From: Nitrospira sp.
GTDB taxonomy: Bacteria; Nitrospirota; Nitrospiria; Nitrospirales; Nitrospiraceae
Assembly: GCA_016873395.1 (NCBI GenBank)
Contig: VGXG01000003.1
Span: forward strand, 1-64,000
Length of the DNA stretch: 64,000 bases
Reading direction: 5' to 3'
This document shows, in pieces, positions 186-39,539 of this stretch. Both the position numbers and the translations under genes were made by a program. The notes under the pieces were generated by a model. It was given only the letters and a program-made list of their open reading frames with translations. It did not search any database and was not told where the DNA came from. Every line of letters begins with the position of its first letter. The stretch's first letter is position 1.

Positions 186-278
186 TCGTCAGTCATCTTT
201 TAGTTGTCAGTTCTCAGTTTGCAGTTATCAGTTTCCGAAGTCTCCGGAACTGAAAACTGACAACTGATGACTGATGAC
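186..278. repeat. Heptad-period twin-arm intergenic repeat (ACTGANN word)
   Basis: The right arm (249-276) is four 7-bp words of the form ACTGANN. The left arm (about 186-234) carries the same word in reverse complement (TCAGT every seven bases). The arms face each other around a centre near 235-245, so the whole element can fold into a long imperfect hairpin. It fills the gap between the partial regulator and the histidine kinase. Similar copies lie at 9967-10033, 25006-25072 and 34949-35043. Confidence 0.75.
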
Positions 279-321
279 CCTGAGAACTGTTCACTGTTCT
301 GCGTTCATCATTGGTCTAGAG

Positions 322-1563
322 ATGGACGACTGGCAAATCCGCAAGGAGTACCTCAAGCTCACAGAGGAGGAAGAGGCCGGCCTCAGGTCTCTTCACCCGT
401 TGATGGCTCAGCATGTGGATGAGCTGGTGGATGCGTTCTACCGTCACCTGCTGAGCTTTGAAGAAACGAGGCGGCTCCTCACGGACGAGCTGATCTCGAC
501 CCGGCTCAAGGAGGCCCAGAAACGGTACCTGCTTTCCCTGGTCGCCGGCCCCTACGACCGGGCCTATATGGAGGGCCGGATCAAGATCGGCGAAGTCCAC
601 GATCGCATCGGCCTGACGCCCCAGTGGTACCTGGGCGCCTACGCCCTTTATCTCAACCTGCTACATCCCCTCATCTTCAAAGAATTCCGGGACAAGCCGG
701 CCCAGTGCCAGTTCCTTCGGATCGCGATGACCAAGGTGATCTTCCTGGACATTCAGCTTGCGATCGAGGCTTACATCAGAAAATCCTCGGAGAAACTGGA
801 GTTCGCCAACCGCCAATTAGCCGAGCTCAGCCGCGAACTCGAAAGGGGCCTCAATAAGGAAAAGAAAGGCCGCCAACAGGCGCAGGAGCAGCTCCGCCAG
901 ACCGAGCGGCTGGCCGAGTTGGGCACTCTGGCCTCCGGCATGGCCCATGAGATCGGCACGCCGATGAACGTCATCCTGGGCCGGGCCGAGTACCTGATGC
1001 AACGGACGCAGGAGGAGCAGACCAAGAAGGGATTGGAGACGATCGTCACGCAAGTGGAGCGTATTACGAAGATCATGAACCAGTTGCTGACCTTCGCACG
1101 GCGGCGCCCGAGCGAGCGGCGGCCGATGGACCTGAAGCAGACGGTTCGAGACTGTCTGGAGATCCTGAGCGAACGGATCATGCGACACCGGATCCAGGTC
1201 GAGACCGACTTTGCGGCGGCCCTCCCGCCGGTTCACGCCGACCAAGACCACCTGAGCCAGGTCCTGCTCAATCTCCTCATCAACGCCGTCCAGGCGATGC
1301 CGGAGGGAGGCCGGCTGCGCGTCGGACTGGCCGGGGCCGACGGCCGCGTCACGATCACGGTCGCGGACAGCGGCCACGGCATCTCCTCGGAGCACCTTCC
1401 GAAAATCTTCGATCCCTTTTTCACGACCAAAGAGGTCGGCAAAGGAACCGGGCTGGGGCTCACGGTGGTGCATGGCATCATCCAGGAACATGGTGGAAGC
1501 ATCACGGCGAAGAGCGAGCCTGGCAAGGGAACCGCCTTCACTATTACCTTACCTTGCCGATAG
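322..1563 (+). CDS. Globin-coupled sensor histidine kinase
   Basis: Predicted soluble oxygen or redox-sensing histidine kinase of 413 residues. The N-terminal ~150 residues resemble a protoglobin sensor domain: helical, with a candidate proximal haem histidine at residue 93 in GEVHDRIGLTPQWYLGAY. A coiled-coil linker (about 155-195) follows. The transmitter module has the H box GMAHEIGTPMN with phospho-acceptor His209, an N box around residue 317 (NLLINAVQAM), a G1 box DSGHGI near 350 and a G2 box GKGTGLGL near 375. No membrane segments are seen. I chose the ATG at 322 because the longer frame from 274 starts inside the upstream repeat and its extra 16 residues look non-coding. Likely partners are the receiver protein at 1845 and the sigma-54 activators on either side. 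Haem binding is inferred from the family. Confidence 0.85.
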   Translation: MDDWQIRKEYLKLTEEEEAGLRSLHPLMAQHVDELVDAFYRHLLSFEETRRLLTDELISTRLKEAQKRYLLSLVAGPYDRAYMEGRIKIGEVHDRIGLTPQWYLGAYALYLNLLHPLIFKEFRDKPAQCQFLRIAMTKVIFLDIQLAIEAYIRKSSEKLEFANRQLAELSRELERGLNKEKKGRQQAQEQLRQTERLAELGTLASGMAHEIGTPMNVILGRAEYLMQRTQEEQTKKGLETIVTQVERITKIMNQLLTFARRRPSERRPMDLKQTVRDCLEILSERIMRHRIQVETDFAAALPPVHADQDHLSQVLLNLLINAVQAMPEGGRLRVGLAGADGRVTITVADSGHGISSEHLPKIFDPFFTTKEVGKGTGLGLTVVHGIIQEHGGSITAKSEPGKGTAFTITLPCR

Positions 1564-1637: not shown

Positions 1638-1844
1638 TTTCCCCTTACTGGGGCATCTTGCGCCACCTTGCTTCTGGTCCTGTGGTCTTTCTCGCCAATT
1701 CTCCGTTCTTGCTCAATTCTAACCCCGCAAAATGCTTGTGAACCTTCACCGCCGGCAAGGCCATCAAGGCATGTACAGAAATTGCAGGAGAGACCCATAC
1801 AGTCACTGTGGGTACCATCTCGAGCCAGGATGATGAGGTCCCCC

Positions 1845-2249
1845 ATGCAGCGAAAGGAGCCGGTTGTGTTGTTGGTCGTCGAAGATGATCGAGCGATGAG
1901 GAGCCTCCTGTGCGACGAATTGTATGGCTTAGGAGCGAGGATCGTGGAGGCGGGCGATGGGGATGAGGCCCTGCAGATGGTCATGGATGCACCGCCTGAT
2001 CTGATCCTGACCGACCTTCGGATGCCTGCCGGAGGATTGGACCATGTCTTGCGGCTGCGAACCTTTGCCCCCCACTGCCCGATCATCGTCATGACCGCCT
2101 TTGGGGACGCCACGACGAAGGAGACGGCGTTGAAATGCGGCGCCGCCGCCTATTTCGACAAACCCGTGCGGATGGCGGACCTCAAGGCGACCGTGAAGCA
2201 ATTGCTGGGGAACCACAAGGGTACAAGCGAGTCACAAGCTGACAGGTAA
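1845..2249 (+). CDS. Single-domain response regulator (receiver)
   Basis: Stand-alone CheY-like receiver domain of about 134 residues. Features seen: acidic pair in LVVEDDRAM, phospho-acceptor Asp57 in LILTDLRMP, conserved Thr in VMTAFGD and Lys106 in FDKPVRM. There is no output domain, so it probably relays phosphate or acts by protein contact. Several starts are possible (ATG at 1830, 1833 and 1845). I prefer 1845 because GAGG at 1835-1838 gives good spacing. The last residues (GTSESQADR) are encoded by the repeat element that begins at about 2219, so the natural C-terminus may have been replaced or extended by it. It lies between a histidine kinase and a sigma-54 activator that lacks its own receiver. 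Confidence 0.85.
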   Translation: MQRKEPVVLLVVEDDRAMRSLLCDELYGLGARIVEAGDGDEALQMVMDAPPDLILTDLRMPAGGLDHVLRLRTFAPHCPIIVMTAFGDATTKETALKCGAAAYFDKPVRMADLKATVKQLLGNHKGTSESQADR

Positions 2250-2322: not shown

Positions 2323-3696
2323 ATGGCCGGATCTCACATCATATCTCCCCTATCACCCCCTTCCGGTTCACTGCGCGACCCGGTCCTTTCGGCTCGGCTG
2401 GACGCGCTCAAGCTGCTGGCCGACCGCACCACCGACCGGGTCATGGTCGTCGATCGGGACGGAACGATCATCTACGCCAACCACTCAGTCGGGTCCGGCG
2501 ACGCGACCGACGGTCGGCCGGCCAAGTGCTACCAAGCCATCCTGCACCGCCAGGACCCCTGCGCGCACTGCGGCGCGATGGAGGCCTTCCACGCCGGCGA
2601 GGTCCGCTCCGTGTCATGCGGCAGTCCCAAGAAACCGAGCGACTGCGGCATGATCCAGGCCTACTCGCTGCTCTCTGCCCGGGGGACCACGGAAGCGGTC
2701 TTGGTGATTCTCGGCCAGGGTGAGGCGGCCGGTCCCGGCCATTCGCCTTCCGAGGAGACTCGGCTGGGGTCCCTGATCGGCCGAAGCGCGCCGATGCGCC
2801 AGCTCTTCGAAATGATCCGGCTGGTCGCCGACAGCCAGGCGACGGTCCTGCTCCAGGGTGAAAGCGGAACCGGCAAAGAGTTGGCGGCGCGCACAATCCA
2901 TGAGCTGAGCTACCGGCGTGAGAAGCCCTTCGTCGCCGTGGACTGCGCCTCGCTGCCGGAGACCTTGCTAGAAAGTGAGTTGTTTGGGCATGTCAAGGGA
3001 GCCTTTACTGGCGCCGTGGCCCCCAAGAAAGGTCTGTTCGAGGAAGCCGAAGGCGGGACGATCTTTCTTGATGAGATCGCAGACACGAGCCCGCAGTTTC
3101 AGGCCAAGCTGCTGCGGGTGTTGCAGGAAGGAGAAATCAAGCCGGTCGGCAGCACTCGCCAGATCAAAGTGGATGCGCGGGTCATTTCGGCGACCAACAA
3201 GCATCTGTCGGATTTGATCAAGGCCAAAGCGTTTCGTGAAGACCTCTATTATCGGCTGGCGGTCCTTCCGTTGATCCTGCCGCCGTTGCGGGACCGGAGG
3301 GAGGACATCCCGTGCCTGGTCCGACATTTCGTGGCCGCCTCCTGTCAGCGGCATCGCAAGCCGGTGATCGAGGCGACCGACGAGGCCCTGCAGGCGCTCA
3401 CGGCGGCGCCCTGGCCCGGGAACGTCCGGGAGCTGCAGCATCGGATCGAGCGAGCCGTCGTGACGGCCAAGGGGGCCAGGCTTGTGTCGGAGGACTTCTT
3501 CGAACCGACTGCGACGGCCACGCCTGCGGAGACGGACTTGCGCAGCGTGGGGCGCGGCGCAGCGCAGCAAGCCGAACGGGCGCGCATTCTCGAAGTCCTC
3601 CTCCAGGCATCAGGCAACCGGGTGAAAGCCGCGCGGCTGCTGAAGATCAGCCGGGCGAGCCTCTACAACAAGCTGCGCGCCTACCGGATCGAATAG
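2323..3696 (+). CDS. PAS-domain sigma-54-dependent transcriptional activator
   Basis: Enhancer-binding protein of 457 residues. A PAS-like sensor comes first (about 25-140) and contains an unusual cysteine set: [20 protein letters not shown]. The AAA+ domain follows, with Walker A GESGTGKE near 179-186, the sigma-54 contact loop GAFTGA at 226-231, Walker B TIFLDEI and an arginine-finger region [11 protein letters not shown] Fis-type HTH ends the protein (about 415-455). There is no receiver domain, so it is probably gated by its PAS cysteines, a ligand or partner proteins. It is a candidate activator for the sigma-54-like promoters at 4581 and 39873. It ends 14 bp from the convergent msrA gene. 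Confidence 0.9.
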
Positions 3697-3710: not shown

Positions 3711-4274
3711 CTACTTCCTGAGCTTCTCTGCAAACTGCTTGCGCAGCTTGGCGACTTTCGGATTGACAACGTAGACACAGTAGGGCTGGGAGGGATTGCG
3801 GGCGGCATACTCCTGGTGATAGTCCTCGGCGACATAGAACGGGCCGGCTGGAGCAACCTCCGTGACGATGGACCGGTTGAACGCCTGCTCCTTCGTGAGC
3901 GCGGCGATCACGTCTTCGGCCGCCGCTTTCTGCTCCGGCGAGTGGTAGAAGATCGCCGAGCGGTATTGGGTGCCGACATCGTTCCCCTGCCGGTTGAGCG
4001 TTGTCGGATCGTGGATGGCGAAGAAGACCTCTAAAATTTCTCGATAGGAGACGACCTGAGGGTCGAACGTGAGTTGGACGACCTCGGCATGGCCGGTCCG
4101 TCCGGTGCACACGGCCTCGTAGGAGGGGTTGGCCACCTGCCCACCCATGTAGCCGGACTCCACTGATTCAACGCCTTTCATCTGGTCATAGACCGCCTCC
4201 AGGCACCAGAAACACCCACCCGCCAGGGTAATTCGCTCCTTCCCGTCCGGCACCACTGTCTGCGTGATCGTCAT
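3711..4274 (-). CDS. msrA: Peptide-methionine (S)-S-oxide reductase MsrA
   Basis: Reduces methionine-S-sulfoxide in proteins, a repair function under oxidative stress. The 187-residue length is typical. The catalytic motif GGCFWC places the nucleophile at Cys21. Other MsrA hallmarks are SGYMGG, GHAEVVQLTFDP, FFAIHDPTTLNRQGNDVGTQYRS and VAEDYHQEY. No signal peptide is evident, so it is cytosolic. The gene has an AGGGAG ribosome-binding site and a perfect TATAAT hexamer about 27 bp upstream of its ATG. It stands alone and converges on the sigma-54 activator. Confidence 0.97.
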   Translation of the reverse strand: MTITQTVVPDGKERITLAGGCFWCLEAVYDQMKGVESVESGYMGGQVANPSYEAVCTGRTGHAEVVQLTFDPQVVSYREILEVFFAIHDPTTLNRQGNDVGTQYRSAIFYHSPEQKAAAEDVIAALTKEQAFNRSIVTEVAPAGPFYVAEDYHQEYAARNPSQPYCVYVVNPKVAKLRKQFAEKLRK

Positions 4275-4580: not shown

Positions 4581-4596
4581 TGGCATGGGGGTTGCG
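4581..4596 (+). promoter_or_regulatory. Candidate sigma-54 (-24/-12) promoter for the multicopper oxidase
   Basis: TGGCAT, five bases, TTGCG: close to the TGGCAC-N5-TTGCA consensus with the invariant GG and GC dinucleotides at correct spacing. It points toward the oxidase gene and implies a leader of about 220 nt. The rest of the gap 4307-4825 holds no convincing gene. It contains this site and the heptad repeat at 4701-4798. Confidence 0.5.
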
Positions 4597-4825: not shown

Positions 4826-7800
4826 ATGAGGTTGTTGAAGTCTAACCGCAGACGGCAAGCCGCTCGCGTGGCGGTCGGTCTGCAAGCAGTGCTTCTGGCG
4901 AGTAGCCTGGTGGCCCTGCCGGGAGTGTTTGCCGCAGGTAGCGCGGAGAAGGGACAGCATGTTCACGCCGTCCCCGTCGCCGGGCCCGCCGCAGGGATCA
5001 ACTGGCAGGAGGCCTTGAAGGGCCAGACGAGGGTGGAGGAGGCCATCGAGGGGCGTGCCGGGCGTTCCGAAGTGGTTGAGATGCAGCACAATCGGCTCAT
5101 GCGCAAACTGGATGAGCAGATGGCGCAGGACGCCCAGGCGCATCAGACCTCCGGCATGTTCAACGGCATGTCCACGATGCACCAGTACATGGGCCAGGAC
5201 GGGTCCAGCTTCCTGCTGATGTCGGACAACAAGGCCGAGCCGGTCTCGATGGCCGGCGGCAAGTGTCCGGCCGGCGCACCGGCCAAGTCCTACGACGTGT
5301 CGATGATCAACGTCGAGATCACGCTGAACCGGTGGCTGGACTACTATCCCGGCTACATGTACGTCCTGACCGAGAATATCGACAAGGTCCGGGCGGAAGA
5401 AGCCAAGAACAAGGCCGCGCGTGAGAAGGAAGGGTTCGACCCCGGAGCGGTCAACACCGGCCTCCAGGGCGATATCATTCAGCCGCTGGCGATCCGGGGC
5501 AATCAGGGCGATTGCGTCAAGATCACCCTGCGCAACAAAATGGCTGATGAAGCGGGCAGCCTGCATATCCAGTCCGCCGCTATGGTCATCAGCGCCTCCG
5601 GGAAAGCGGCGACAACCACCAATCCGGATTCCGTCGTGGAACCAGGCAAGTCGGTCGAGCTGGAGTGGTATATCCACCCCAACACGCAGGAAGGCGTGCG
5701 GCAGTTTCACTCCTACAGCCACGATCGTGAGCTCACGGTGCTGGGCCTGTTCGGCGCGTTCGTGGTCGAACCGAAGGGGTCCACATACCTGGAACCGCTC
5801 GGCACCGGCCCGGCGACTGAAGCCAAGAGCGGCTGGCAAGTGATGATCGACAACGGGTCCGGGCCCGACTTCCGCGAACACGTGATCTTCTATCACGAGA
5901 TCGGGGACGAGGCCTTCCGTCCGTTGAACAAGAAGGGTGACTTCCTGCCCCAGCGCGATCCGCTGACCGACGCCTATCGGCCTGGCGGGCGCGCGCTGAA
6001 CTACCGCAGCGAGCCCTTCGGCATCGACCAGATGCACTTGCAGCATGAATACTTCGGCTTCGAGGACGAGTCGATGGCGTACAGCGCCTATACCTTCGGC
6101 GATCCACCGACGACGATTCCCCGCGCCTACCTGGGTGATCCGACCAAATGGCGCATCGTGCACGGGGGATCCGAGGTGTTCCACTCCCACCATCCGCACA
6201 GCGGGTCCATCCGCTGGGTCCGCAGCCCGCGCGCGGAACCGCAGGACTTCTGGGCGGCGGCGGCAGACGGACCGATCAAGTACCCGGTCGTCCGGACCAA
6301 GTCCGATCGCGTGGACGTGGAAGTGATCGGGCCCTCTGAGGCGCTCGATCTGGAAGCCGAGGGCGGTGCGGGGCAGTCTCAGCACCTCGCGGGAGAATTC
6401 CTGTTCCACTGCCACGTGGCGCACCACTACGTCGCGGGCATGTGGGGCTATGGCCGCGTCTACAATACGTTGCAGGTCGGCCAGTACCACACCGACACGA
6501 TGCCGGACATGCGGGAGCTGCCGGATCGGCAGGGCCGCATGAAAGTCGGCGTGACCTCCGATAAGTTGATCGGCACGACCGTGGACTGGTTCGGGAAGAA
6601 GTTCAAGATCGTGGCCCGGAATCAGAAGACCAACTGGAAGGCGGACCCGGCCATCGTGAACATCAAGGACTGGGTCGAAATGTTCCTGCCGGCGCAGGGC
6701 AAGCCTGGTCACACGGATGACGAGAAGGGCCAGATCATGTCCTACGACGCGACCGTGTGGGACTGGAAGTGGGACGGCGATGTCGCCAAGGGCGAGCGGG
6801 AAAGCACGGCGAAATATCCGAAGTATCCCGCTGCCGCCAAGTGGGACGACAGCACCAGGCCGGCGATTCTCTTTGAACCGCTGACGGGCAAGATGTCCTG
6901 GCCGCTGTTGAAGCCGCACTTCGGCAAGCGCAATCCGTTCTCGGCGAACCACAGCGGAGCGCCGTGGCTGGAGCCGATCCACCAGGATGAGAACGGCGAG
7001 CGAACCAGCGAGCCGGCCAAGCCGGGCGAGCAGGGCCGTTGGAGCCTCTGCCCGGACAATGCGAACCAGAAGTTCTACAACATCAAGTTCATCCGGCTCC
7101 CCATCACCCTCTCGAAGAAGCAGGGGAAGGAGCCACCGATCGTCGACAAGGACGGCCTGATTTACGTGTTGGCCGAGGAAGAAAAGTTGGTCCGAGCCAA
7201 CGACGATCTCAAGTACCCGCTCGTGATCCGCGCGAACGTGTATGATTGCGTGGACTCGATCCTCACCAGCGAGTGGGATGACGACGAATTCACGAACTTC
7301 CAGGCGTCCAAGATCAACATCCATCCCCACTTCTTCCAGTTCGACACGGGGAATTCGGATGGCGTGATCTCGGGCTTCGAGTACGAGATGTCGGTCCGGC
7401 CGTACACCATGCATGAGAAGAAGAACAAGCATGGGTTGCCGGTGCCGATGAATTCCAAGCTCACGGAAGCCGCGAAGGCAGGGGCTCGGTCCATCAAGAT
7501 CAAGATGGCGACCGGCGCCACGAAGTATCATGTGAACACGGAGCTGCAGGTCGGTGCGGATTGCTTGATTCCAAGCAAGGATGCCACCGCCTCGCTCAAG
7601 CGGGAAGATAGTTGCGCGGAAGTTGCCCGAATCAAGGAGATCAAGGGCGATGAGATCACGTTCTTTAAGCCGCTGAAGCACAACCACCCGGTGGGCGACA
7701 TTGTCACGCCGGAGTTCGTGCGGTATCGGTGGTGGGTGGACGTGGACCTGGGGACCGTGTTCTGGCATGACCATGCCTTCGGCGCGACGACCTGGCCTCA

Positions 7801-9781
7801 CGGCGGGTTCGGCGTGACGCTCGTGGAGCCCTTCGGGTCCACCTATCACGACCCGAAGAACGGCAAGCTGGTCTGGAGCGGTCCGATCGCGGACATCCAC
7901 AGCACCGAGCCGATCGGGTACGGGGTCACCGGCAGTTTCCGCGAGCTGATGGTCTCGATCCACGACACGGTGCCTCATACCGTGAACGTGATCCAGGCGG
8001 GCAACCCGCCCGGCCAGCCGGTCGAAGTGGCGTTGGAAGCGGGAAAGACCGTCTCGTTCCAGATGCCGGAGAAGATCCTCAATACGCCCAACCCCTTCAT
8101 CAATGGGGGGACGCACACGACGGGAAGCGGCTTGAATTTCCGGGCCGAACCCTTCGCGCAACGGCTGGCGAACAACCCGGACACCTCGGCGCTCTTCAGC
8201 AGCGCCATCCACGGTGATCCGGACACCCCGCTCCTGCGGGCCTACACCGGCGACACGGTGGTGTTCCGCCTGCTGCATCAGTTGATGAACGAATCGCACG
8301 TCTGGACTCTGTCAGGCCATACCTTCCTGACCGAGCGGTACGCCGGGGATGCCAATCGGAAGTACTCGATCCACGTCGGGATCGCCGAACGGTACGACCT
8401 GGTGACGAAGGCGGGCGGCTTCCAAGGCATGCCGGGCGACTACATCCACTTCAACGGCCGGAGCTCGCACTTCGCCGAAGGTGGATGGGGGGTTTTCCGG
8501 GTGCTCGGCAAGGAAGTCGCCGACCTGCAGAAGCTGCCGTCCGGGACCAGACCCGGCGACATCCCGGCGGCGCCGTCTTCGGTCTGCCCGGCCGACGCGC
8601 CGGTGAAGACCTTCAACGTGGTGGCGCTGGACCGCCCGCTGAAACTGAACCCGAAGTCGCCTGACGCGATTGAGGTGGACTTCGAGCGGAAGATCGAGAT
8701 GACGGTCCCGGAGGGCAAGATTTTCGCCCTCGAGGAGGAAGCGACGAAGGTCGGGGGGACGGTGATGCCGAACCCGTTGACGCTGCGCGTGAACCTTGGG
8801 GACTGTGTCAAGGTCAACCTGAAGAACAAGATGGCCAAGAGCAAGGCGTCCTTCTTTGCGCCGGGCCTGGCCTTCGATCCGAAAGATTCCCAGGGTCTGA
8901 ACGTCGGCAACAACGGCGGCGATCAGACGATCGGCCCGGGCCAGGGCCGCACTTACACCTACTACGCGCATCCTGCCAACAAGGAGACGACGTCGTTGGT
9001 GTGGGACGGCGGGAACATCGTCACCAATCCGCGCAATGGCCTCTACGGCGCGGTCATCGTCGGGCCTCGAGGATCGCAGTACCGCGATCCGGTGACCGGC
9101 GAGGATCTCTCGCAGAAGAACGCCTGGCGCGCGGACGTGATCGTGGACCGAAGCCTGTCGGAGAATGCTGGGAAGGTCAACTACCGGGATGTGGCCCTCT
9201 TCTTCCAGGATGAGGACAACATCATCGGGACGGCGTTCATGCCCTACGTCCAGAACGTGGCGGGTCTGACGTCGGTCAACTACCGGTCGGAACCGTACAA
9301 GTTCCGGGAGGAGCAGGGCTGCTCGCTGAGCAAGGTGTTCATGCCCTGCAAAGTGGACGCCCCCGAAGATCCCGTGACGCCGCTCATCGAGGCGCACGCG
9401 GGTGACCCGGTCCGGATCCACGTGATCGGCGCCAACAACGAGCAGAACGGCATGTTCTCGGTGGAAGGCCACGAGTGGCCCATCGAGCCCTACATGCCGG
9501 GTGCCGACATGATCAGCGTGGTGGAGTACTCCGGGTCCGAGACCCTGGATGTCTTCCTGCGCCAGGGTGCGGGCGGCCCGGCTCGGTTGGCCGGCGACTA
9601 CGTCTGGTCCAACCAGCGGCTGCCTTACACGCAGTCCGGACAGTGGGGCTACTTCCGGGTGCTGCCGGCCGGCGATCAGCGGGTCCTTCCGCTGTCGAGC
9701 GGCGCAGTGGGCACCAAGAGCGCGGAGGCTCAGCCGAGCCAGCCCGGAGTCGCACAGGCGATTCCGACCGCGATGAAGTAA
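4826..9781 (+). CDS. Giant MofA-like multicopper oxidase with permuted copper motifs
   Basis: Secreted multicopper oxidase of 1651 residues, three times the size of a laccase and close to the Leptothrix MofA length I recall (about 1660). The N-terminus is arginine-rich then hydrophobic, ending near VFAAGS, consistent with export. All four trinuclear-centre motifs are visible but in the order L3, L4, L1, L2. They are HxxHxH at 453-458 (HSHHPH), HCHxxxHxxxGM at 528-539, HPH at 833-835 and HDH at 981-983. Further cupredoxin-like modules follow (SGHTFLTERY, VEGHEWPIEPY). Start ATG 4826 is set by AAAGGAGG at 4811-4818; an upstream TTG at 4808 is in frame but lies before that site. Downstream are cupredoxin and FGE-fold genes. 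Known relatives include proposed Mn(II) oxidases; the substrate here is inferred, not shown. Confidence 0.85.
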   Translation: MRLLKSNRRRQAARVAVGLQAVLLASSLVALPGVFAAGSAEKGQHVHAVPVAGPAAGINWQEALKGQTRVEEAIEGRAGRSEVVEMQHNRLMRKLDEQMAQDAQAHQTSGMFNGMSTMHQYMGQDGSSFLLMSDNKAEPVSMAGGKCPAGAPAKSYDVSMINVEITLNRWLDYYPGYMYVLTENIDKVRAEEAKNKAAREKEGFDPGAVNTGLQGDIIQPLAIRGNQGDCVKITLRNKMADEAGSLHIQSAAMVISASGKAATTTNPDSVVEPGKSVELEWYIHPNTQEGVRQFHSYSHDRELTVLGLFGAFVVEPKGSTYLEPLGTGPATEAKSGWQVMIDNGSGPDFREHVIFYHEIGDEAFRPLNKKGDFLPQRDPLTDAYRPGGRALNYRSEPFGIDQMHLQHEYFGFEDESMAYSAYTFGDPPTTIPRAYLGDPTKWRIVHGGSEVFHSHHPHSGSIRWVRSPRAEPQDFWAAAADGPIKYPVVRTKSDRVDVEVIGPSEALDLEAEGGAGQSQHLAGEFLFHCHVAHHYVAGMWGYGRVYNTLQVGQYHTDTMPDMRELPDRQGRMKVGVTSDKLIGTTVDWFGKKFKIVARNQKTNWKADPAIVNIKDWVEMFLPAQGKPGHTDDEKGQIMSYDATVWDWKWDGDVAKGERESTAKYPKYPAAAKWDDSTRPAILFEPLTGKMSWPLLKPHFGKRNPFSANHSGAPWLEPIHQDENGERTSEPAKPGEQGRWSLCPDNANQKFYNIKFIRLPITLSKKQGKEPPIVDKDGLIYVLAEEEKLVRANDDLKYPLVIRANVYDCVDSILTSEWDDDEFTNFQASKINIHPHFFQFDTGNSDGVISGFEYEMSVRPYTMHEKKNKHGLPVPMNSKLTEAAKAGARSIKIKMATGATKYHVNTELQVGADCLIPSKDATASLKREDSCAEVARIKEIKGDEITFFKPLKHNHPVGDIVTPEFVRYRWWVDVDLGTVFWHDHAFGATTWPHGGFGVTLVEPFGSTYHDPKNGKLVWSGPIADIHSTEPIGYGVTGSFRELMVSIHDTVPHTVNVIQAGNPPGQPVEVALEAGKTVSFQMPEKILNTPNPFINGGTHTTGSGLNFRAEPFAQRLANNPDTSALFSSAIHGDPDTPLLRAYTGDTVVFRLLHQLMNESHVWTLSGHTFLTERYAGDANRKYSIHVGIAERYDLVTKAGGFQGMPGDYIHFNGRSSHFAEGGWGVFRVLGKEVADLQKLPSGTRPGDIPAAPSSVCPADAPVKTFNVVALDRPLKLNPKSPDAIEVDFERKIEMTVPEGKIFALEEEATKVGGTVMPNPLTLRVNLGDCVKVNLKNKMAKSKASFFAPGLAFDPKDSQGLNVGNNGGDQTIGPGQGRTYTYYAHPANKETTSLVWDGGNIVTNPRNGLYGAVIVGPRGSQYRDPVTGEDLSQKNAWRADVIVDRSLSENAGKVNYRDVALFFQDEDNIIGTAFMPYVQNVAGLTSVNYRSEPYKFREEQGCSLSKVFMPCKVDAPEDPVTPLIEAHAGDPVRIHVIGANNEQNGMFSVEGHEWPIEPYMPGADMISVVEYSGSETLDVFLRQGAGGPARLAGDYVWSNQRLPYTQSGQWGYFRVLPAGDQRVLPLSSGAVGTKSAEAQPSQPGVAQAIPTAMK

Positions 9782-9805
9782 GTCGCTCTGTCAGCGTAAC
9801 CAACG

Positions 9806-9841
9806 AACGGGGGAGCTGCAGAACAACGCGGCTCCCCCGTT
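9806..9841 (+). terminator. Intrinsic terminator after the multicopper oxidase
   Basis: Perfect 11-bp stem: AACGGGGGAGC at 9806-9816 with GCTCCCCCGTT at 9831-9841, a 14-base loop, then TTTCGTTTCG. It lies 25 bp past the oxidase stop. The T-tract is interrupted, but stem strength and position support termination, separating the oxidase from the cupredoxin genes. Confidence 0.75.
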
Positions 9842-9887
9842 TCGTTTCGTCAGGAAACCGTTAGCCAGGCGCACGCAAGCTCGGTAT

Positions 9888-10047
9888 AATCGAAGGGCGC
9901 GGTTCAAGCGAAGAATCTACGCCTACTGGAGGCAAAGTAACTATCCGCTCACAGTAAAGGAAAAGTTATCAGTCCTCAGTGTTCGGTTCGCAGTTTCATG
10001 ACTGAAGACTGATGACTGAAAACTGACGACTCCCCAGCAAGGTTGGT
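9888..10047 (+). promoter_or_regulatory. Leader region shared with the CBS-protein gene, including heptad repeat
   Basis: The region carries an ATCGAAGGGCGCGGTTCAA block (also found near 26237), then GGCAAAGTAAC, a CACAGTAAAG block, an ACTGANN twin-arm heptad repeat (9967-10033) and a CCCCAGCAAGGTTGGTATGGAGG run up to the start codon. The same series GGCAAAA, CACTGTAAAG, repeat, CCCTTAGCAAGTTTGGTATGGAGG occurs at about 24966-25095 before the CBS gene. It is a duplicated 5' leader, perhaps with a promoter or translational function. Confidence 0.5.
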
Positions 10048-10059
10048 ATGGAGGCCGGA

Positions 10060-10995
10060 ATGAAACAACCACTCAGAGTGCTGGCCGGAATGCTTGCAAC
10101 GCTGCTGGCGAGCGCCATGGCGGCGTGGGCCTACGAGGAGACCACGGTGATGGACGGCGGGACCCTCACCGGGAAGGTGACGCTCGCAGGCGAAGTGCCG
10201 AAGCCGAAGGGCTACAACCTGACCACCTTGCCCGACGCGATTTATTGCGGGCGGATTTCGGACGGACGAGGCTGGCGACTCCTCCAGCCCTTCCACGTCG
10301 GGTCGAACGGGGCGTTTCAGGATGTCGTCGTGCTCATCGAGGGCATCGAGAAGGGCAAGCCCTTCCTCGACTTCAAGACCCCGCGTATCGAAGCGCTCGA
10401 TTGCCGTTTCATGCCATTCACCACCATCGTGCGCGATCAGCATGACGTGGCGGTGGTGAACATGGACCCGGCCATGCATGACATCCAGGCCTACGAGACC
10501 TCCCACCTGGGCCCACGGGTGCTGTTCAACGTGCCGCTGCCGATCAGCCAGCGGTATCCGCATGAAGCCGGGCTGAGCGCTCATTTCCAGAAGCATTACG
10601 AAGGCACGCCGATGACCCAGACCGTCAAAATGACCAAGGGGCGGCGCGTGTTCGTCATGCAGTGCGGATTTCACGCCTACATGGAAAGCTGGGCGTTGAC
10701 GGTGGATGATCCATACTATGCGATCACGGACAAAGAGGGCCGTTTCACAATCGGCGATGTGCCGTCAGGAACATACAGGGTCTTGGTGTGGCATCCCTAT
10801 ATCGCCGGAGGCGGCGCCAGGGAATTCACGGTGACGATCCAGCCGAAGGTCCAGACGACCCTGGACGTGCAGATCCCGGCGCCGACCGGGCGGCTCTACG
10901 CCAATCAGATGGTCGAGAACCCGTTTGTCCGCTACAACATCACCGAGGACGTGCAGAGTCAGATCGTGCCATCGCTGGAAAAGCAAGCATATTGA
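10060..10995 (+). CDS. Exported cupredoxin-like protein with carboxypeptidase-regulatory domain (paralogue 1)
   Basis: Secreted protein of about 311 residues with a clear signal peptide (ending AMAAWA). A candidate type-1 copper site is formed by His140 in AMHDIQ and by Cys202, His205 and Met208 in CGFHAYM, the C-x2-H-x2-M pattern of blue copper proteins. The C-terminal part has ITDKEGRFTIGDVPSGTY, typical of carboxypeptidase-regulatory-like beta domains. I use ATG 10060 because its GGAGGCCGGAATG context is identical to that of the next gene; an in-frame ATG at 10048 lies before the ribosome-binding site. The next gene is a close tandem paralogue. Its position behind the multicopper oxidase suggests it carries electrons or copper for that enzyme. 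Function is inferred. Confidence 0.8.
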   Translation: MKQPLRVLAGMLATLLASAMAAWAYEETTVMDGGTLTGKVTLAGEVPKPKGYNLTTLPDAIYCGRISDGRGWRLLQPFHVGSNGAFQDVVVLIEGIEKGKPFLDFKTPRIEALDCRFMPFTTIVRDQHDVAVVNMDPAMHDIQAYETSHLGPRVLFNVPLPISQRYPHEAGLSAHFQKHYEGTPMTQTVKMTKGRRVFVMQCGFHAYMESWALTVDDPYYAITDKEGRFTIGDVPSGTYRVLVWHPYIAGGGAREFTVTIQPKVQTTLDVQIPAPTGRLYANQMVENPFVRYNITEDVQSQIVPSLEKQAY

Positions 10996-11059
10996 GAGGG
11001 CTCTCAGGGCCTGAAGGGGTGGACATACCAGTAGCAGCACAGAGCGAGAGGAGGCCGGA

Positions 11060-12004
11060 ATGTGGACATGGAGCAAGATGGTCATGGGAGCGCTGGTCGG
11101 AGCTGCGCTCCTGCTCGGCCTCGGCGAGGCCGAGGCTTACGAGGAAGTCGCGGTCACTGACGGAGGGACAATCACCGGCACGGTGACCCTGGCCGGCCAG
11201 GTTCCGAAGCCGAAGGGCTACAACCTGACCACCCTCCCCGACCAGGTCTATTGCGGGCGGATTTCAGATGGACAAGGCTGGCGCATCCTGCAACCGTTCC
11301 AGGTCGGGCCGGGAGGCGAGTTTCGCGAGGTGGTGGTCTATCTGGACGGGATCGGCAAGGGCAAACCCTTCGACAAAGGGAGCCTCCCGCAAATCGAAGC
11401 GAAAGATTGCCTCTTCGTCCCGTTCACGACTGCCGTGCGGGACGATCAATCGGTGACGGTGGTCAACATGGACCCGGTCATGCATGACATCCAGGCCTAT
11501 GAGACGTCCGAACTCGGCCCACGAGTTCTGTTCAACGTGCCCCTGCCGATGAATCCGCAGCACCCGCGCAACTTCAAGGATCGCAGCGAAGCCGCGATGT
11601 ACCACAAACACATGGCCGGCGCACCGTCGAAGCAATTGGTCAATCTCAGCAAGAACCGCCGGATCTTCGTCATGCAATGCGGCTTCCACGCGTACATGGA
11701 GAGCTGGGGCGTGGCCGTCACCAATCCGTACTTCGCCAAGACAGACGAGCAAGGCCGGTTCTCCATGACCGATGTGCCGCCGGGCACCTATACGCTGGCC
11801 GTCTGGCATCCGTATATCCGTAGCAGGATCGAGCAAACCGTCACGATCGGCCCGCAGGGAACAGTGGAGGCAAATATCGTGGTCCCGGCCCCGACAGGGC
11901 GGCTCTATGCCAACGAGGTGTTGGATCATGCGTACATTCGCTACAACGTGCCCGAGGAAACGAAGAGGGAAATCGATCCGATGATCAAAAAGCAGGATCA
12001 CTGA
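11060..12004 (+). CDS. Exported cupredoxin-like protein with carboxypeptidase-regulatory domain (paralogue 2)
   Basis: Second copy of the preceding gene, 314 residues, with its own signal peptide (ending GLGEAEA) and AGGAGG ribosome-binding site. Long identical stretches remain (VPKPKGYNLTTLPD, YCGRISDG), showing tandem duplication. The copper ligands are conserved: His142 in VMHDIQ, and Cys207, His210 and Met213 in CGFHAYM. The carboxypeptidase-regulatory segment TDEQGRFSMTDVPPGTY and the ending IPAPTGRLYAN or VPAPTGRLYAN are shared. The 64-bp spacing suggests co-transcription. The two copies could have different redox potentials or bind different partners, but the sequence cannot decide this. 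Confidence 0.8.
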   Translation: MWTWSKMVMGALVGAALLLGLGEAEAYEEVAVTDGGTITGTVTLAGQVPKPKGYNLTTLPDQVYCGRISDGQGWRILQPFQVGPGGEFREVVVYLDGIGKGKPFDKGSLPQIEAKDCLFVPFTTAVRDDQSVTVVNMDPVMHDIQAYETSELGPRVLFNVPLPMNPQHPRNFKDRSEAAMYHKHMAGAPSKQLVNLSKNRRIFVMQCGFHAYMESWGVAVTNPYFAKTDEQGRFSMTDVPPGTYTLAVWHPYIRSRIEQTVTIGPQGTVEANIVVPAPTGRLYANEVLDHAYIRYNVPEETKREIDPMIKKQDH

Positions 12005-12045
12005 AGCCGATCAAACCGACGCGGGATCGACAGACGCGGTGAACC

Positions 12046-12999
12046 ATGAAGCGTGAAGCGGTTGGAATCGCATGCGCAACGGCGCTGATCGTGTCGGCGA
12101 TCGCGGCCGCTGCGTGGGCCGATCACGATCAGCCGAAGTGGCGACCGACCGGCGAAGCGGTTGAAGCCACGCGGTTAGCAGGCCTGCCGGTGCCGGATGG
12201 CATGGTTCGGATTCCGTCCGGATGGTTCCTGATGGGCAGCGATCCCGCGGCTGACGAAGACGCAGGGCCGCAGGAGCAACCGCAGCGGTGGATTTACCTG
12301 GACGAGTTTGAAATCGATCGCTATGAAGTGTCGAACGCGCATTACCTCCGGTTCGTGTTGGCGACAGACCGGGTCGGACCGCCGTACTGGCGCGTCGATC
12401 CGTTTCCCGACAAGATGGCGATGCATCCGGTCATCGGCGTGAGCTGGAGCGATGCGGATGCCTACTGCCGCTGGGCGGACAAGCGGCTGCCGACCGAAGC
12501 CGAGTGGGAGAAAGCCGCCAGGGGAACGGATGGACGAAGGTTTCCGTGGGGCGACGAACCGGCCGGATGGCTGAAAAGCAACATCGCGCATCCGGGATCG
12601 AAACGAGGGGTCAAATATCCCCCGCTCGCCAACGTCAACCGCTACGACCGCGGCGCCAGTCCCTACGGGGTCTATCAAATGGCAGGGAACGTGGGCGAAT
12701 GGGTTGCCGACTGGTTCGACCCGGAATACTACCAGTATGGAACCAGCTTCAACCCGACCGGCCCGGAGTTCGGCGAAGATCGGGTGCATCGAGGAGGGTC
12801 CTGGAACGAAGATCCGGAAGTGGCCCGCTCCGCCGGGCGCGGTGCCGGCGCCCCCGATCACCGCTCCTATCTCATCGGATTTCGTTGCGCGAAATCAACA
12901 ACGAAAGCTGTCAGCCCTCAGCTATCAGCCGTCAGCTCTACCCCCTCCTTTTTCCTCCCCCTTCAAGGGGGAGGGTGGGGTGGGGGTGCTGATCGCTGA
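12046..12999 (+). CDS. Exported FGE/SUMF1-fold protein lacking catalytic cysteines (copy 1)
   Basis: Sulfatase-modifying-factor (formylglycine-generating enzyme) fold, 317 residues, with signal peptide (ending AAAWA). Family marks are GWFLMGSD, FEIDRYEVSNAHY, HPVIGVSWSDADAYCRWADKRLPTEAEWEKAARG, YGVYQMAGNVGEWVADWF and GGSW. In active FGEs two cysteines follow GGS at a fixed spacing; here those positions are Glu and Ala in GGSWNEDPEVAR. It is therefore unlikely to make formylglycine and is more likely a structural, binding or assembly protein. The final ~30 residues (from about AVSPQLSAVSS on) are encoded by the heptad repeat at 12904-13015, so the natural protein probably ended near GFRCAKS. 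A tandem relative follows. Confidence 0.85.
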   Translation: MKREAVGIACATALIVSAIAAAAWADHDQPKWRPTGEAVEATRLAGLPVPDGMVRIPSGWFLMGSDPAADEDAGPQEQPQRWIYLDEFEIDRYEVSNAHYLRFVLATDRVGPPYWRVDPFPDKMAMHPVIGVSWSDADAYCRWADKRLPTEAEWEKAARGTDGRRFPWGDEPAGWLKSNIAHPGSKRGVKYPPLANVNRYDRGASPYGVYQMAGNVGEWVADWFDPEYYQYGTSFNPTGPEFGEDRVHRGGSWNEDPEVARSAGRGAGAPDHRSYLIGFRCAKSTTKAVSPQLSAVSSTPSFFLPLQGGGWGGGADR

Positions 13000-13015
13000 A
13001 TGCTGAACGCTATTC
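12904..13015. repeat. Heptad twin-arm repeat with G/C-tract hairpin, overlapping a gene end
   Basis: The left arm (12904-12938) repeats CAGCNNT-type words (TCAGC every seven bases). The right arm (12990-13015) is GCTGATC, GCTGAAT, GCTGAAC, GCT. Between them sits a strong hairpin, CCTCCCCCTTCAAGGGGGAGG at about 12955-12975, followed by G-rich sequence. The element encodes the tail and stop codon of the first FGE-fold protein. Confidence 0.75.
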
Positions 13016-13032
13016 AAAGAAGGAGGTCGGTC

Positions 13033-14022
13033 ATGGTTTCCCCGCAGACAGCACACCCCTCAACGCTCAATAGGGTCGTCAACGTCCTGCTCGCCGGCGC
13101 AGCCGTGCTCGCCCTGATCAGCGCCGCCTGGGGCCTGGACACGCAGGATATCGCCGTGGAGTGGACGACGGAAGGCAAGAAGATTGCGATGGATCGTGCC
13201 CAGACCTGGCCCGCCAAGGACGATATGGTTTTGGTCCCCGTCGGAGAATTCCTCATGGGCAGCGACAAAAAAATGGACCGGAATGCCTATGCAGCCGAGC
13301 GCCCCCAGCGGAAGATCCATCTCGACGCCTTCGAGATCGACAAGTACGAGGTCACCGCGCTCCAGTACCTCAAGTTCGTGTTGGCCACGAACCGGCCGCC
13401 GCAGCTCGACTGGCGGTACGACGGCGGGAACTTCCAGGAAAGCATGGCGCATCATCCGATCATGCACGTGAGTTGGTATGACGCGGATGCGTACTGCAAG
13501 TGGGCCGGGAAGCGTCTCCCGACGGAAGCCGAGTGGGAGAAGGCCGCGCGGGGTGCAGACGGACGGATCAACCCCTGGGGCAATCAGACGGCCGGCCTGA
13601 GCCGGGCGAACTTTGGTCGCTCGGGGCTCTCCGGCCCCGTGCGGGACCGTCCTGAACGGCTCCTCCTGTATCCGCCCCTCATCTCAGTGGACAAGTACGA
13701 GAACGCCGTGAGCCCTTATGGCGTGTACCAGCAGATCGGCAACGTGGCGGAGTGGGTGGCGGACTGGTACGACTCTGAGTATTACAAAAACTCGCCGGAC
13801 CGCAATCCTAAAGGCCCCGACCAGGGCAAGCACAAGGCCTTCCGGGGAGCAAGCTGGATCGACAGCACCACCACGGCGCGGGCCGCCCAGCGGAACGGCG
13901 CAGACCCGAACACCAAGATGAACTGGCTGGGCATCCGTTGCGCCCGCGACGCGCAGGAACCGCAGGGCCGGCAGGTCTCCCTAGCCGACCCGCCGCAGGA
14001 CCCGGCACAGGGCTTGCCGTAA
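13033..14022 (+). CDS. Exported FGE/SUMF1-fold protein lacking catalytic cysteines (copy 2)
   Basis: Second FGE-fold protein, about 329 residues. ATG 13033 has AGGAGG at 13021-13026; the longer frame from 13000 lies in the repeat. A hydrophobic N-terminal stretch (VVNVLLAGAAVLALISAAWG) indicates export. Motifs: GEFLMGSD, FEIDKYEVTALQYLKF, HPIMHVSWYDADAYCKWAGKRLPTEAEWEKAARG, YGVYQQIGNVAEWVADWY. The active-site segment reads GASWIDSTTTAR, with Asp and Ala at the two cysteine positions, so oxidase activity is not expected. The same loss in both tandem copies argues for a selected non-catalytic role, perhaps as a partner of the copper proteins upstream. Confidence 0.85.
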   Translation: MVSPQTAHPSTLNRVVNVLLAGAAVLALISAAWGLDTQDIAVEWTTEGKKIAMDRAQTWPAKDDMVLVPVGEFLMGSDKKMDRNAYAAERPQRKIHLDAFEIDKYEVTALQYLKFVLATNRPPQLDWRYDGGNFQESMAHHPIMHVSWYDADAYCKWAGKRLPTEAEWEKAARGADGRINPWGNQTAGLSRANFGRSGLSGPVRDRPERLLLYPPLISVDKYENAVSPYGVYQQIGNVAEWVADWYDSEYYKNSPDRNPKGPDQGKHKAFRGASWIDSTTTARAAQRNGADPNTKMNWLGIRCARDAQEPQGRQVSLADPPQDPAQGLP

Positions 14023-14043
14023 AAGACGGCACCCGAGCGGATC

Positions 14044-14568
14044 ATGCCCCTGACCGTCTGGATTCCAGAGTCAAGCGCGGCGACGGCGACGCTCGCGCTG
14101 GGTCTTGCCCGCATGGCTCCGACGTTCGACTCCGTCCAGTCCGAGGACGGCACCCGAGTCTACTTCGCGGCTTTTGCCGATATCTCGCAGACCCTGGACC
14201 TCGCCGTCCGGCTGATCGGAGAGGTCATCAACATTCCGGGAGTCCATGCCACCATCAACGGCCGCCACGTCAGGAACTTCAATCTGTTCTGGAGCGCGCT
14301 TCTCTGTTATCGGGATAGCCTCCGCGAGCCTGACCCTGTAGCCTACTGCGCACAGGTCTCCACCAGGCTGGGCGACTTGTCCGGGTGTCCCGATCGCGGC
14401 TGCCTCTCCCACTGCCAATTCATCTGCACCCGCTGCCTCGGCGTCGTTCGCGAGACCGGCGCCCCGCCGATCTCGACCCAACTCCGGGAGATCGCCGTGC
14501 AAGCGGAAGTGGACTGGTGTCCCAACCTCACGCTCCCGCCTGTCCGACGCGAAACGTCAGGCGCCTGA
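14044..14568 (+). CDS. Cysteine-rich protein of unknown function
   Basis: I do not recognise this 174-residue protein. The N-terminal two thirds look like a compact alpha/beta domain (TVWIPESSAATATLALGLARM, TLDLAVRLIGEVINIPGVHATINGRHV). The C-terminal part has a dense cysteine cluster, CPDRGCLSHCQFICTRC, plus two further cysteines, suggesting a zinc or iron-sulfur site. There is no signal peptide. It starts 21 bp after the FGE-fold gene on the same strand and is probably co-transcribed, which ties it loosely to the copper-protein block. Confidence 0.65.
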   Translation: MPLTVWIPESSAATATLALGLARMAPTFDSVQSEDGTRVYFAAFADISQTLDLAVRLIGEVINIPGVHATINGRHVRNFNLFWSALLCYRDSLREPDPVAYCAQVSTRLGDLSGCPDRGCLSHCQFICTRCLGVVRETGAPPISTQLREIAVQAEVDWCPNLTLPPVRRETSGA

Positions 14569-14607
14569 GGAGTCAGGCGATGTTGCATGTGTGTTAGACT
14601 GCGCACG

Positions 14608-15198
14608 ATGAACCGGCTCGTGATCATGCTCGTCGCGGCGCTCTGGACGCTGGCTCCCGCCGGCGCCTGGGCCTTGGAGTTCTCGGCCGACCAGATCACG
14701 CGGATCAACGGGCGCAGCCACAAAGCCAACATCTACTACCGGGATGAGATGTGGCGGCTGGAACACCAGGCATTGGGTCCCGTCAACGTCACGATCGTCC
14801 GGAAAGACAAGCGGGTGATGTGGTTGCTGCTCTCCCGCATGAAGCACTTTAAGACCGTGCCCTACGATCCCGAGCAGGCCCCCCAGGTGAGCGAACGGAT
14901 CGAGGGAGAGGTCGCGCGGGAGGAGATCGGGAGCGAGACGCTGGATGGCCATCCCACGACCCTCTACCAGGTGACCGTGCGGAGGGGCAGCCGGGAAGAG
15001 GTCTATTACCAGTGGCTGGCGACCGACATCAAGTTTCCGCTCAAGTTGGCGAAGAAAGACGGAAGCTGGGTGGTGGAATACCGGCATGTGAAGTTGCGTC
15101 GCTTGTCCGACTATTTGTTTCAACTGCCGGTCAATTTTCAGCCGCTGGAGGAGTTTGATCAGAAGCCGAAGGCAGGGCAAGAGGGCCGGGCGATGTAA
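14608..15198 (+). CDS. Exported LolA-like / DUF4412-like protein
   Basis: About 196 residues starting at ATG 14608, with a signal peptide ending PAGAWA. The mature part (FSADQITRINGR, IYYRDEMWRLEH, RKDKRVMWLLLSRMKHF, GEVAREEIGSETLDGHPTTLYQVTV) has the beta-strand pattern and the export-linked phrase of outer-membrane lipoprotein-sorting-like proteins, where a lipid-exposed sheet is typical. A specific function is not evident. It is the last gene of the plus-strand block that begins with the multicopper oxidase. Confidence 0.6.
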   Translation: MNRLVIMLVAALWTLAPAGAWALEFSADQITRINGRSHKANIYYRDEMWRLEHQALGPVNVTIVRKDKRVMWLLLSRMKHFKTVPYDPEQAPQVSERIEGEVAREEIGSETLDGHPTTLYQVTVRRGSREEVYYQWLATDIKFPLKLAKKDGSWVVEYRHVKLRRLSDYLFQLPVNFQPLEEFDQKPKAGQEGRAM

Positions 15199-16293: not shown

Positions 16294-16532
16294 GTTGTGT
16301 CCGGTTTCTGTAGCGCTCTTCCACAATCCCCCTGCCCGGCTTGCCCAGCAGGATCTTCCAGCCAATCTGCACATCCGCATTCAACCGCTATCCTGTTGGA
16401 ATTAAAGCCATTATCTTGATCGAAATCTTTGCGGCTGCGCCAAGGGGAAAGGTTCCTGACTTGCACCCTGTTCCTGCGTCTTACGCGGCGCGGCGGGCAG
16501 CAGATGCTCGCCGGGAGAGAAAAAGTCGGCGC

Positions 16533-17243
16533 ATGAAACGAAAACCGAGTCTCTTGCAGAATTGCGATTGTTGCGAGTTGCGCGCCAAGTCCGTCGTCTG
16601 TGACCTGGAGGGCGACGACCTGGCTTCCTTCCAGCAGGTCAAACACTCCTTCGAGTACGAGCCGCACAGGACCGTCTTCTATGAGGGCCACGCCTGCCTG
16701 GGCCTGTACCTGCTGTGCGCAGGGAAGGTCAAGCTGACACGCTCCTCGGCCCGAGGTCAGCGACAGATCGTGCGCATTCTGGATGCGGGCCAGTTGATTG
16801 AAAAACACGCGTTCCGGGACGGAGCCCTCCACGAAGTGACCTGCGAGACCATCGAACCTTCCCAAATCTGCCTGATCGAAAAAGAGGCCTACTTGGGGCT
16901 ACTCCGGCACAACCCGCAACTGGCGATCAAGCTCATCCAATTGTTGAGTTGCGAGCTGAGCGTGAACATGGATCAGCTCGACCAGTTCACCTTCAAGACC
17001 GCGCGCGAGCGGCTGGCCGGGCTGCTCCTGGAGCTGGGCAACCGCTTCGGCAAAAACGGCGGCAGCGGAGTCCAGGTCGGGATCTCCTTGAAGCGCGAGG
17101 AGATCGCCGAGATGGCCGGCGTCACCGTCGAAACCGCCGTGCGGCTCCTTGGGACCTTCCGCGACGAGGGGTTGATCGGCATTGATGGGCGAACCCTTAC
17201 GCTGCTGAACCAGGACCGCCTGACCAGAATTGCTCGCCTGTAG
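16533..17243 (+). CDS. Crp/Fnr-family transcriptional regulator with N-terminal cysteine cluster
   Basis: 236 residues from ATG 16533; the longer frame upstream lacks coding character. A cyclic-nucleotide-binding fold (about 30-145) is followed by a winged HTH whose recognition region is LKREEIAEMAGVTVETAVRLL (about 186-206). The N-terminus carries Cys11, Cys13, Cys14 and Cys23, and more cysteines follow in the sensor core. This resembles, but does not match, the spacing of FNR iron-sulfur ligands. A redox- or oxygen-sensing role is therefore plausible but unproven. It is monocistronic. Confidence 0.85.
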   Translation: MKRKPSLLQNCDCCELRAKSVVCDLEGDDLASFQQVKHSFEYEPHRTVFYEGHACLGLYLLCAGKVKLTRSSARGQRQIVRILDAGQLIEKHAFRDGALHEVTCETIEPSQICLIEKEAYLGLLRHNPQLAIKLIQLLSCELSVNMDQLDQFTFKTARERLAGLLLELGNRFGKNGGSGVQVGISLKREEIAEMAGVTVETAVRLLGTFRDEGLIGIDGRTLTLLNQDRLTRIARL

Positions 17244-39466: not shown

Positions 39467-39539
39467 CTCTCCCCGGCCCCTTTCCGCCACGACGTTCGCA
39501 CTCTTGAAAAGGAGCAAGAGCGGTGCCACTACAAACAGT

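Follow-up and report, generated by a model that had tools for sequence, protein, structure and literature searches.

A Conserved Multicopper Oxidase–Cupredoxin Core in Nitrospiria and a Paralogue Type Marked by a Pair of FGE-Fold Proteins

Introduction

Nitrospira are widespread nitrifiers. This work concerns a 64-kb window (the whole stretch of DNA analyzed, 64,000 nucleotides), which is the start of contig C3 in a 2.34-Mb metagenome-assembled genome (MAG) of Nitrospira sp. with a completeness of 97.8%. The window encodes a giant multicopper oxidase (MCO), two cupredoxins, and two proteins with the fold of the formylglycine-generating enzyme (FGE). The presence of an MnxG-like MCO in Nitrospira and its possible participation in manganese oxidation are already known in print.

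A periplasmic MCO similar to the manganese oxidase of Bacillus SG-1 and conserved in Ca. N. defluvii has been described (PMC3578206). This MCO is located in a gene cluster with the nitrite oxidoreductase (NXR) and two cupredoxin-like proteins, and the authors suggest protection from reactive oxygen based on Mn(III) (PMC3578206). For MnxG of Nitrospira MAGs, a connection with manganese removal has been reported (PMC12070406), and putative Mn oxidases (MoxA, MnxG, McoA), whose function awaits verification, are reported in almost all nitrifier MAGs of a biofilm (PMC11995701). Two novel MCOs are indicated for each member of Manganitrophaceae (PMC9040806).

The NXR regions of Nitrospina gracilis and Ca. 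N. defluvii resemble the locus studied here in that genes of an MnxG-like MCO and cupredoxin-like proteins occur in the same clusters, but neither an FGE pair nor dedicated regulators are mentioned in the sections covered (PMC3578206). The window also differs from these regions in that the best NxrA-like gene of its genome (a frame of 1149 aa) is on another contig, C4. A preliminary description of the locus, made from the sequence, stated that no system with this gene set was described. This is partly wrong, as the combination of an MnxG-like MCO with two cupredoxin-like proteins was printed in 2013 (PMC3578206). No account of the FGE pair or of the regulatory unit beside this MCO was found among the open-licence papers listed.

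Results

The MCO and cupredoxin form the core of the locus throughout the class Nitrospiria, and one of the paralogue types of the MCO (type A) is distinguished by the FGE pair. The MCO was found in 145 of the 146 sampled Nitrospiria genomes, the only genome without it (G322) being 85% complete; it is present in all 132 high-quality genomes of the class and in 33 of the 34 genomes of this sample that belong to other orders. Among near relatives of the window genome, 59 of 61 contain it. In the phylum sample, MCO matches were obtained in 116 of 295 genomes, 113 of them in the class and three, weak ones, outside it; the cupredoxin profile matched 113 genomes of the class along with 30 outside it, the latter weakly. 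Several copies can occur in one genome: G029 has three MCOs of this family, and the window genome has a second MCO on contig C32 (locus L095), which is 71% identical to the window MCO. Matches to the latter at 80–93% identity are in named Nitrospira and Nitrospirae records, which points to a Nitrospiraceae origin of the window genome.

For the comparison of neighborhoods, 85 MCO open reading frames (ORFs) of at least 900 aa from 78 loci were classed by their identity to the window MCO as A (at least 77%, 60 ORFs), B (60–77%, 22 ORFs), and C (below 60%, three ORFs); these classes broadly match clades of the tree. Neighbors were counted only at loci with at least 4.5 kb of sequence downstream, namely 38 of type A, 12 of type B, and three of type C. 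Downstream of type A MCOs, a cupredoxin is encoded at 31 loci, at least one FGE-fold protein at 35, and two at 33. All 12 type B loci have a cupredoxin and one has an FGE gene, while all three type C loci have a cupredoxin and none has an FGE gene on the same strand. Ten of the 11 loci examined in other orders of the class (L154–L164) have one to three cupredoxins downstream of the MCO. Neighbors stand in the same order at dozens of loci, which is beyond chance. The co-occurrence check suggested by the preliminary description therefore revealed a conserved neighborhood, with the MCO and cupredoxin as the class-wide core and the FGE pair at 33 of the 38 type A loci.

Some other loci of the family can be noted. 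L095 (positions 1148–10591 of contig C32, genome G000) encodes the MCO, two cupredoxins with 52–57% identity, a HEAT-repeat protein, and a third, distant cupredoxin (31%). One Nitrospirales family has a divergent form of the MCO, about 1725 aa in length and about 33–37% identical, at L166 (4246–9420), L167 (5960–11134), and L168; in L166 and L167 it is followed by a large ORF of about 913–915 aa. The contig of L059, filed under an Opitutales MAG, encodes a 63% identical MCO with neighbors like an outer membrane protein and an activator, as in Nitrospirales, and its assignment is perhaps a binning error.

The window MCO is 1651 aa in length, in agreement with the approximately 1650 residues claimed for it earlier. 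Its ATG at 4826 is preceded by an AGGAGG-type ribosome-binding site, and the stop is at 9781. None of the 12 copper ligands is missing: H453, C529, H534, and M539 for type 1 copper and H456, H458, H528, H530, H833, H835, H981, and H983 for the trinuclear site. The motifs follow the order HxxHxH (453–458), HCHxxxHxxxxM (528–539), HPH (833), and HDH (981). Among 139 aligned proteins, every ligand is fully conserved apart from the axial Met, which is kept in 138. Pfam matched the MCO domains only in part. According to its N-terminal sequence, the protein is probably exported. A structural model of the core (residues 140–1110) was not used because of its mean predicted local distance difference test (pLDDT) value of 57, with most of the copper region below 50.

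The resemblance to MnxG noticed in the preliminary description was borne out. MnxG of the Bacillus MnxEFG complex (PDB 9bxa) is the best solved relative of the MCO, matched in several stretches (phmmer, E 2e-85). Both are giant MCOs. All 12 ligands are the same as in Priestia MnxG and stand in the same permuted order; the match of this Priestia protein to 9bxa extends along its length and scores 1705 bits. The MCO and Priestia MnxG are 26–34% identical depending on the stretch. However, MnxG is shorter (1228 aa), the stretches between the copper motifs being longer in the MCO, and the neighbors of the MCO are cupredoxins instead of MnxE and MnxF. A tblastn search revealed no MnxE or MnxF relatives in the window and 176 loci; it did not extend to whole genomes. 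The queries were the two small genes in front of Priestia MnxG, which we read as the expected MnxE and MnxF, and they matched the two Priestia loci only (E 0.01). On the NCBI MnxG model NF041487, the window MCO scores 117.5 bits, below the cut-off of 3100. This model is narrow, since the Bacillus-type MnxG of Priestia itself fails with 333 bits; the relatives from Rubrobacter, Haladaptatus, Hymenobacter, and Streptomyces reach 348, 204, 188, and 150 bits, respectively.

A mixture-model tree was built because the quick tree gave long-branch warnings. In it, one clade (12 rows, 100/100) unites the main Nitrospiria proteins; together with a Streptomyces protein and the divergent form of Nitrospirales, it makes up a group of 15 rows (100/100), and MnxG is apart. 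The quick tree likewise gave a separate clade; the outgroup branches of these trees are long, and MofA and McoA are absent from them. Judging by the ligand set and order, the protein would work like MnxG-type MCOs, while by the tree it is not MnxG. A place within a known metal-oxidase clade was not supported. The preliminary description had named, as what would refute it, a position outside all metal-oxidase clades together with the lack of a conserved neighborhood. The oxidase falls outside the MnxG branch, in a class-wide clade of its own and with no MnxE/F relative, but its neighborhood is conserved. A manganese label for the MCO is possible, although neither the placement nor the partners favor it.

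Among the proteins of the locus, the cupredoxins were described earlier as having complete type 1 ligands, which was confirmed for copy 1 (H144, C206, H209, and M212). In an alignment of 88 rows, C206, H209, and M212 are kept in all 81 rows that cover these positions, and H144 in all 85. The set of His, Cys, His, and Met occurs together with the fold expected of a type 1 cupredoxin. Amicyanin has a C-x2-H-x2-M loop, and the window protein shares this loop and the cupredoxin fold with amicyanin and related cupredoxins; a further carboxypeptidase-regulatory-like domain at the C-terminus and a conserved pair of cysteines (C67/C119) set it apart. A sequence search against solved structures gave weak, unrelated matches only. 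For the model of copy 1 (mean pLDDT 78), Foldseek found auracyanin, amicyanin, pseudoazurin, and other cupredoxins at a probability of 1.00, with low query TM-scores because only one part of the model is covered; the top ranks are taken by antibodies and pilins, whose root-mean-square deviation is poor, and cupredoxins begin at rank 6.

The two FGE-fold proteins belong to the FGE family (E about 1e-35 to solved FGEs) but lack the active-site cysteine pair of FGE (SUMF1), as had been claimed. No Cys was detected in the catalytic stretch of either protein, nor in any of the 89 rows having this stretch (out of 90). Two other invariant cysteines align with Cys residues of solved FGEs in alignments with the human enzyme. 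The tandem arrangement of both families, emphasized in the preliminary description, exists in the window, but the cupredoxin pair is not the rule among type A loci: a single cupredoxin precedes the FGE genes in the 30 counted type A loci having both within 4.5 kb. L026 and L042, outside this count, have two cupredoxins. As for the Cys-rich protein, its ORF is real, but it has no family and is found near only 12 of 32 type A loci. The DUF4412-like gene occurs near 12 of 32 type A loci and six of 12 type B loci.

All six ORFs reported previously were found at their positions on the plus strand (Table 1). That they constitute one block is correct with respect to the strand, but a single operon from the MCO to the cupredoxin and FGE genes is not plainly indicated, given the strong terminator-like hairpin after the MCO gene. 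The cupredoxin, FGE-fold, Cys-rich, and DUF4412-like genes follow one another with gaps of less than 70 bases. By eye, short direct repeats can be noted at 9975–10035, in the gap 5′ of the first cupredoxin gene. Upstream, the conserved unit reaches to about position 274, that is, beyond the start at 4826 assumed before.

The added upstream part encodes, on the same strand, a histidine kinase, a receiver protein, and a sigma-54 activator. Homologues within 4.5 kb upstream of type A MCOs were detected at 20 (kinase), 21 (receiver), and 22 (activator) of 39 loci. Many are 55–78% identical; these families are common, and the lower matches may be other members. Long activator matches adjoining type A MCOs show 57–75% identity, and the kinase homologues match mostly by the kinase core. 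The window kinase matches the globin-coupled histidine kinase 5ohe (E 2.7e-18). Globin sensing as a general trait was rejected: the sensor was found in one of 39 loci with a flank, and the other kinases examined have different N-termini. The msrA gene (3711–4274) was also rejected as a member of the unit, being near none of the 39 loci.

A sigma-54-like site precedes the window MCO gene. In the window overall, this pattern is at the chance level (25 found, 27 expected). Upstream of MCO genes, it was detected in 25 of 60 type A and 11 of 46 other stretches, compared with 1.8% of random 600-bp stretches; the latter are mostly coding, and the former counts are not independent, since near-identical loci were kept and L098 and L023 are the same locus. 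The strict pattern is missing from 35 of the 60 type A stretches. Of the 25 type A sites, 17 are located 210–280 bases 5′ of the start. All nine type B relatives with an activator upstream (L058–L060, L062, L063, L065, L072, L106, L107) have a sigma-54-like site. The pattern and the synteny suggest that the MCO gene may be under sigma-54 control. Exact or one-mismatch patterns also occur at 39513–39528 (−), 39873–39888 (+), 59914–59929 (+), and 36413–36428 (−).

At two loci, the MCO adjoins nxr-like genes. In L103, the giant MCO is the last in a row of genes that begins with nxrA and nxrB and continues with a sigma-54 activator and a small MCO-domain protein; in L105, it is followed by a cupredoxin and nxrA. 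Since the TIGR03479 cut-off was reached in none of the 146 genomes, genes were called "NxrA-like" for the length of their frames (about 1150 aa), their score, and their neighbors; many Nitrospirales reach 1e-50, and some show weak matches only. NXR as a prerequisite for the MCO was rejected on the ground of 33 MCO-bearing genomes of other orders without a TIGR03479 match better than about 1e-21, although at most five candidates were scored per genome and the absence of NxrA is therefore not proven. A PF01077 match in the window genome corresponds to a sulfite/nitrite-reductase-type frame on contig C7.

Table 1. Features of the locus, with positions in the 64-kb window.
Feature	Position	Strand	Basis
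Globin-coupled histidine kinase (protoglobin sensor, HisKA, HATPase)	274..1563	+	PF11563 E 1.1e-41, PF00512, PF02518
Response regulator receiver protein; true start probably within the ORF	1668..2249	+	PF00072 E 2.2e-22
Sigma-54-dependent activator (AAA+ domain, Fis-type helix-turn-helix)	2323..3696	+	PF00158 E 6.9e-70, PF02954
Sigma-54 −24/−12 promoter-like site TGGCATGGGGGTTGCG	4581..4596	+	pattern match
Giant, probably exported MCO, 1651 aa, MnxG-like permuted copper site	4826..9781	+	
Terminator-like hairpin 3′ of the MCO gene	9802..9846	+	dG −33.7 kcal/mol, z −6.3 (folded 9795–9850)
Cupredoxin copy 1, C-terminal carboxypeptidase-regulatory-like domain	10048..10995	+	PF13620/PF14686, ligand motif
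Cupredoxin copy 2, sharing 57% identity with copy 1	11060..12004	+	domain search, ligands
FGE-fold protein 1, without catalytic cysteines	12046..12999	+	PF03781 E 1.3e-56
FGE-fold protein 2, without catalytic cysteines, 47% identical to copy 1	13000..14022	+	PF03781 E 1.1e-58
Cys-rich protein, loose locus member	14044..14568	+	no family match
DUF4412-like protein, doubtful member	14587..15198	+	PF14371 18.9 bits, below Pfam cut-off 21.6

Elsewhere in the window, a hemerythrin-domain protein (17585–18100) adjoins a Crp/Fnr regulator (16341–17243), NuoF-like and molybdopterin formate-dehydrogenase-like genes stand in tandem at 44845–49177 (formate dehydrogenase being a reading of the domains), and an AcrB-type RND efflux pump is encoded at 55350–58457 (−). 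Rfam and tRNA scans of the 64-kb window gave no matches.

Discussion

The copper-ligand motifs, their conservation, the gene order, and the sigma-54-like site were read from the sequence, while export, transcription control, O2 reduction, the direction and donor of the electrons, and the role of the module are inferred. The locus appears to represent, in Nitrospiraceae, the type A variant of a copper-oxidase module that occurs across Nitrospiria. The sensor kinase, response regulator, and sigma-54 activator would turn on the giant exported MCO, which would take single electrons at its type 1 copper and reduce O2 to water at the trinuclear site. The adjacent single-copper cupredoxins would be its redox partners, bringing electrons from periplasmic oxidation reactions. 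Such a pair may act without pumping, as a soluble O2 reductase or a sink for electrons, and would in this way protect O2-sensitive metabolism and keep reactive oxygen low; the FGE-fold pair may be a non-enzymatic scaffold or ligand-binding part. Of the explanations considered, a cupredoxin-coupled periplasmic O2 reductase seems to us the most likely, although this preference is tentative; it was chosen because the cupredoxin is the steadiest companion of the MCO across loci. The conserved ligands, the near-universal MCO, the downstream cupredoxin, the nxr-like neighbors, the sigma-54-like site with the activator, and the gas-sensor-type globin on the window kinase were counted in its favor.

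A number of observations weigh against this explanation. Two near relatives have no MCO match (G043, 90% complete, and G055, 71% complete). At seven of the 38 type A loci, no cupredoxin is encoded within 4.5 kb, and two of these have none of the neighbor families; the cupredoxin is also missing from L164, from the divergent L166–L168, and from L097, L103, and L112, which belong to the clade holding the nxr-linked MCOs. The latter three have an activator-like match upstream and no sigma-54 site, and the globin sensor is not conserved (one of 39 loci). Outside Nitrospirota, MCO relatives with 24.6–32.3% identity occur on 19 plasmid records (Priestia, Streptomyces, Rubrobacter, haloarchaea, and others), whereas the 50 plasmid records with cupredoxin relatives come from different genera, Sinorhizobium for the most part, so that the pairing is not general. 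Finally, a strong hairpin separates the MCO and cupredoxin genes, the direction of the electrons towards O2 is our deduction, and the similarity to MnxG points to a metal substrate.

The last point leads to the main rival explanation, namely that the MCO uses O2 to oxidize Mn(II) to Mn(III/IV) as MnxG does, either as a protection from reactive oxygen or as a side activity; we regard this as possible but doubtful. Such a function was already proposed for Nitrospina and Nitrospira (PMC3578206) and for Nitrospira of sand filters (PMC12070406), and Manganitrophaceae, with two novel MCOs per member, belong to the same class (PMC9040806). However, the MCO is near-universal in the class, whereas manganese lithotrophy there is shown only for Manganitrophus cultures (PMC9040806), and PMC11995701 states that manganese oxidation still awaits demonstration for the nitrifier families that it lists. 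While MnxG remains the best solved relative, with the same permuted ligand order, the MCO is outside the MnxG branch, its NF041487 score is lower than those of five other relatives scanned, and neither the window nor the loci contain an MnxE/MnxF relative. Metal detoxification is a general role of many MCOs, and a cuprous or ferrous oxidase keeping periplasmic Cu(I) or Fe(II) low would agree with the plasmid relatives near CopC/CopD, CDF, or P-type ATPase genes, the HlyD/OEP/MFS efflux-type set preceding the MCO in L105, and the CopD-domain gene about 9.6 kb downstream in the window. We consider this role unlikely, as no copper exporter adjoins the MCO in the annotated parts of the window, L095, L096, and L103, where the search was not systematic, and paired cupredoxins with sigma-54 control are, to our knowledge, unusual for detoxification.

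In the opposite direction of electron flow, the MCO of the whole class would oxidize Mn(II) or another metal, and the adjacent cupredoxin would pass the electrons to the respiratory chain instead of O2. According to PMC9040806, MCO-based manganese lithotrophy is possible only with a periplasmic electron carrier, and most of the MCOs examined here have the gene of a candidate carrier beside them, including those of orders without strong NxrA-like matches. All ligands of the trinuclear site are kept, however, so that O2 reduction is to be expected, and the same paper favors Cyc2 and PCC_1; we find this electron entry highly improbable. If it were true, nitrite oxidation would not be the only lithotrophy of Nitrospira, and the MCO–cupredoxin couple would have been inherited by the manganese lithotrophs of the class.

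Conclusions

Papers from 2013 to 2025 have guessed at the role of the MnxG-like oxidase of Nitrospira, and the module described here now makes this role testable. The paralogue types differ in their neighbors, which are the FGE pair in one case, cupredoxins and the DUF4412-like gene in another, and nxr-like genes in a third, and the control unit predicts that MCO expression is inducible. The findings argue against mnxG as a gene name in MAG annotation. The MCO is a near-universal marker of the class Nitrospiria, and the adjacent cupredoxin is the obvious candidate for its redox partner.

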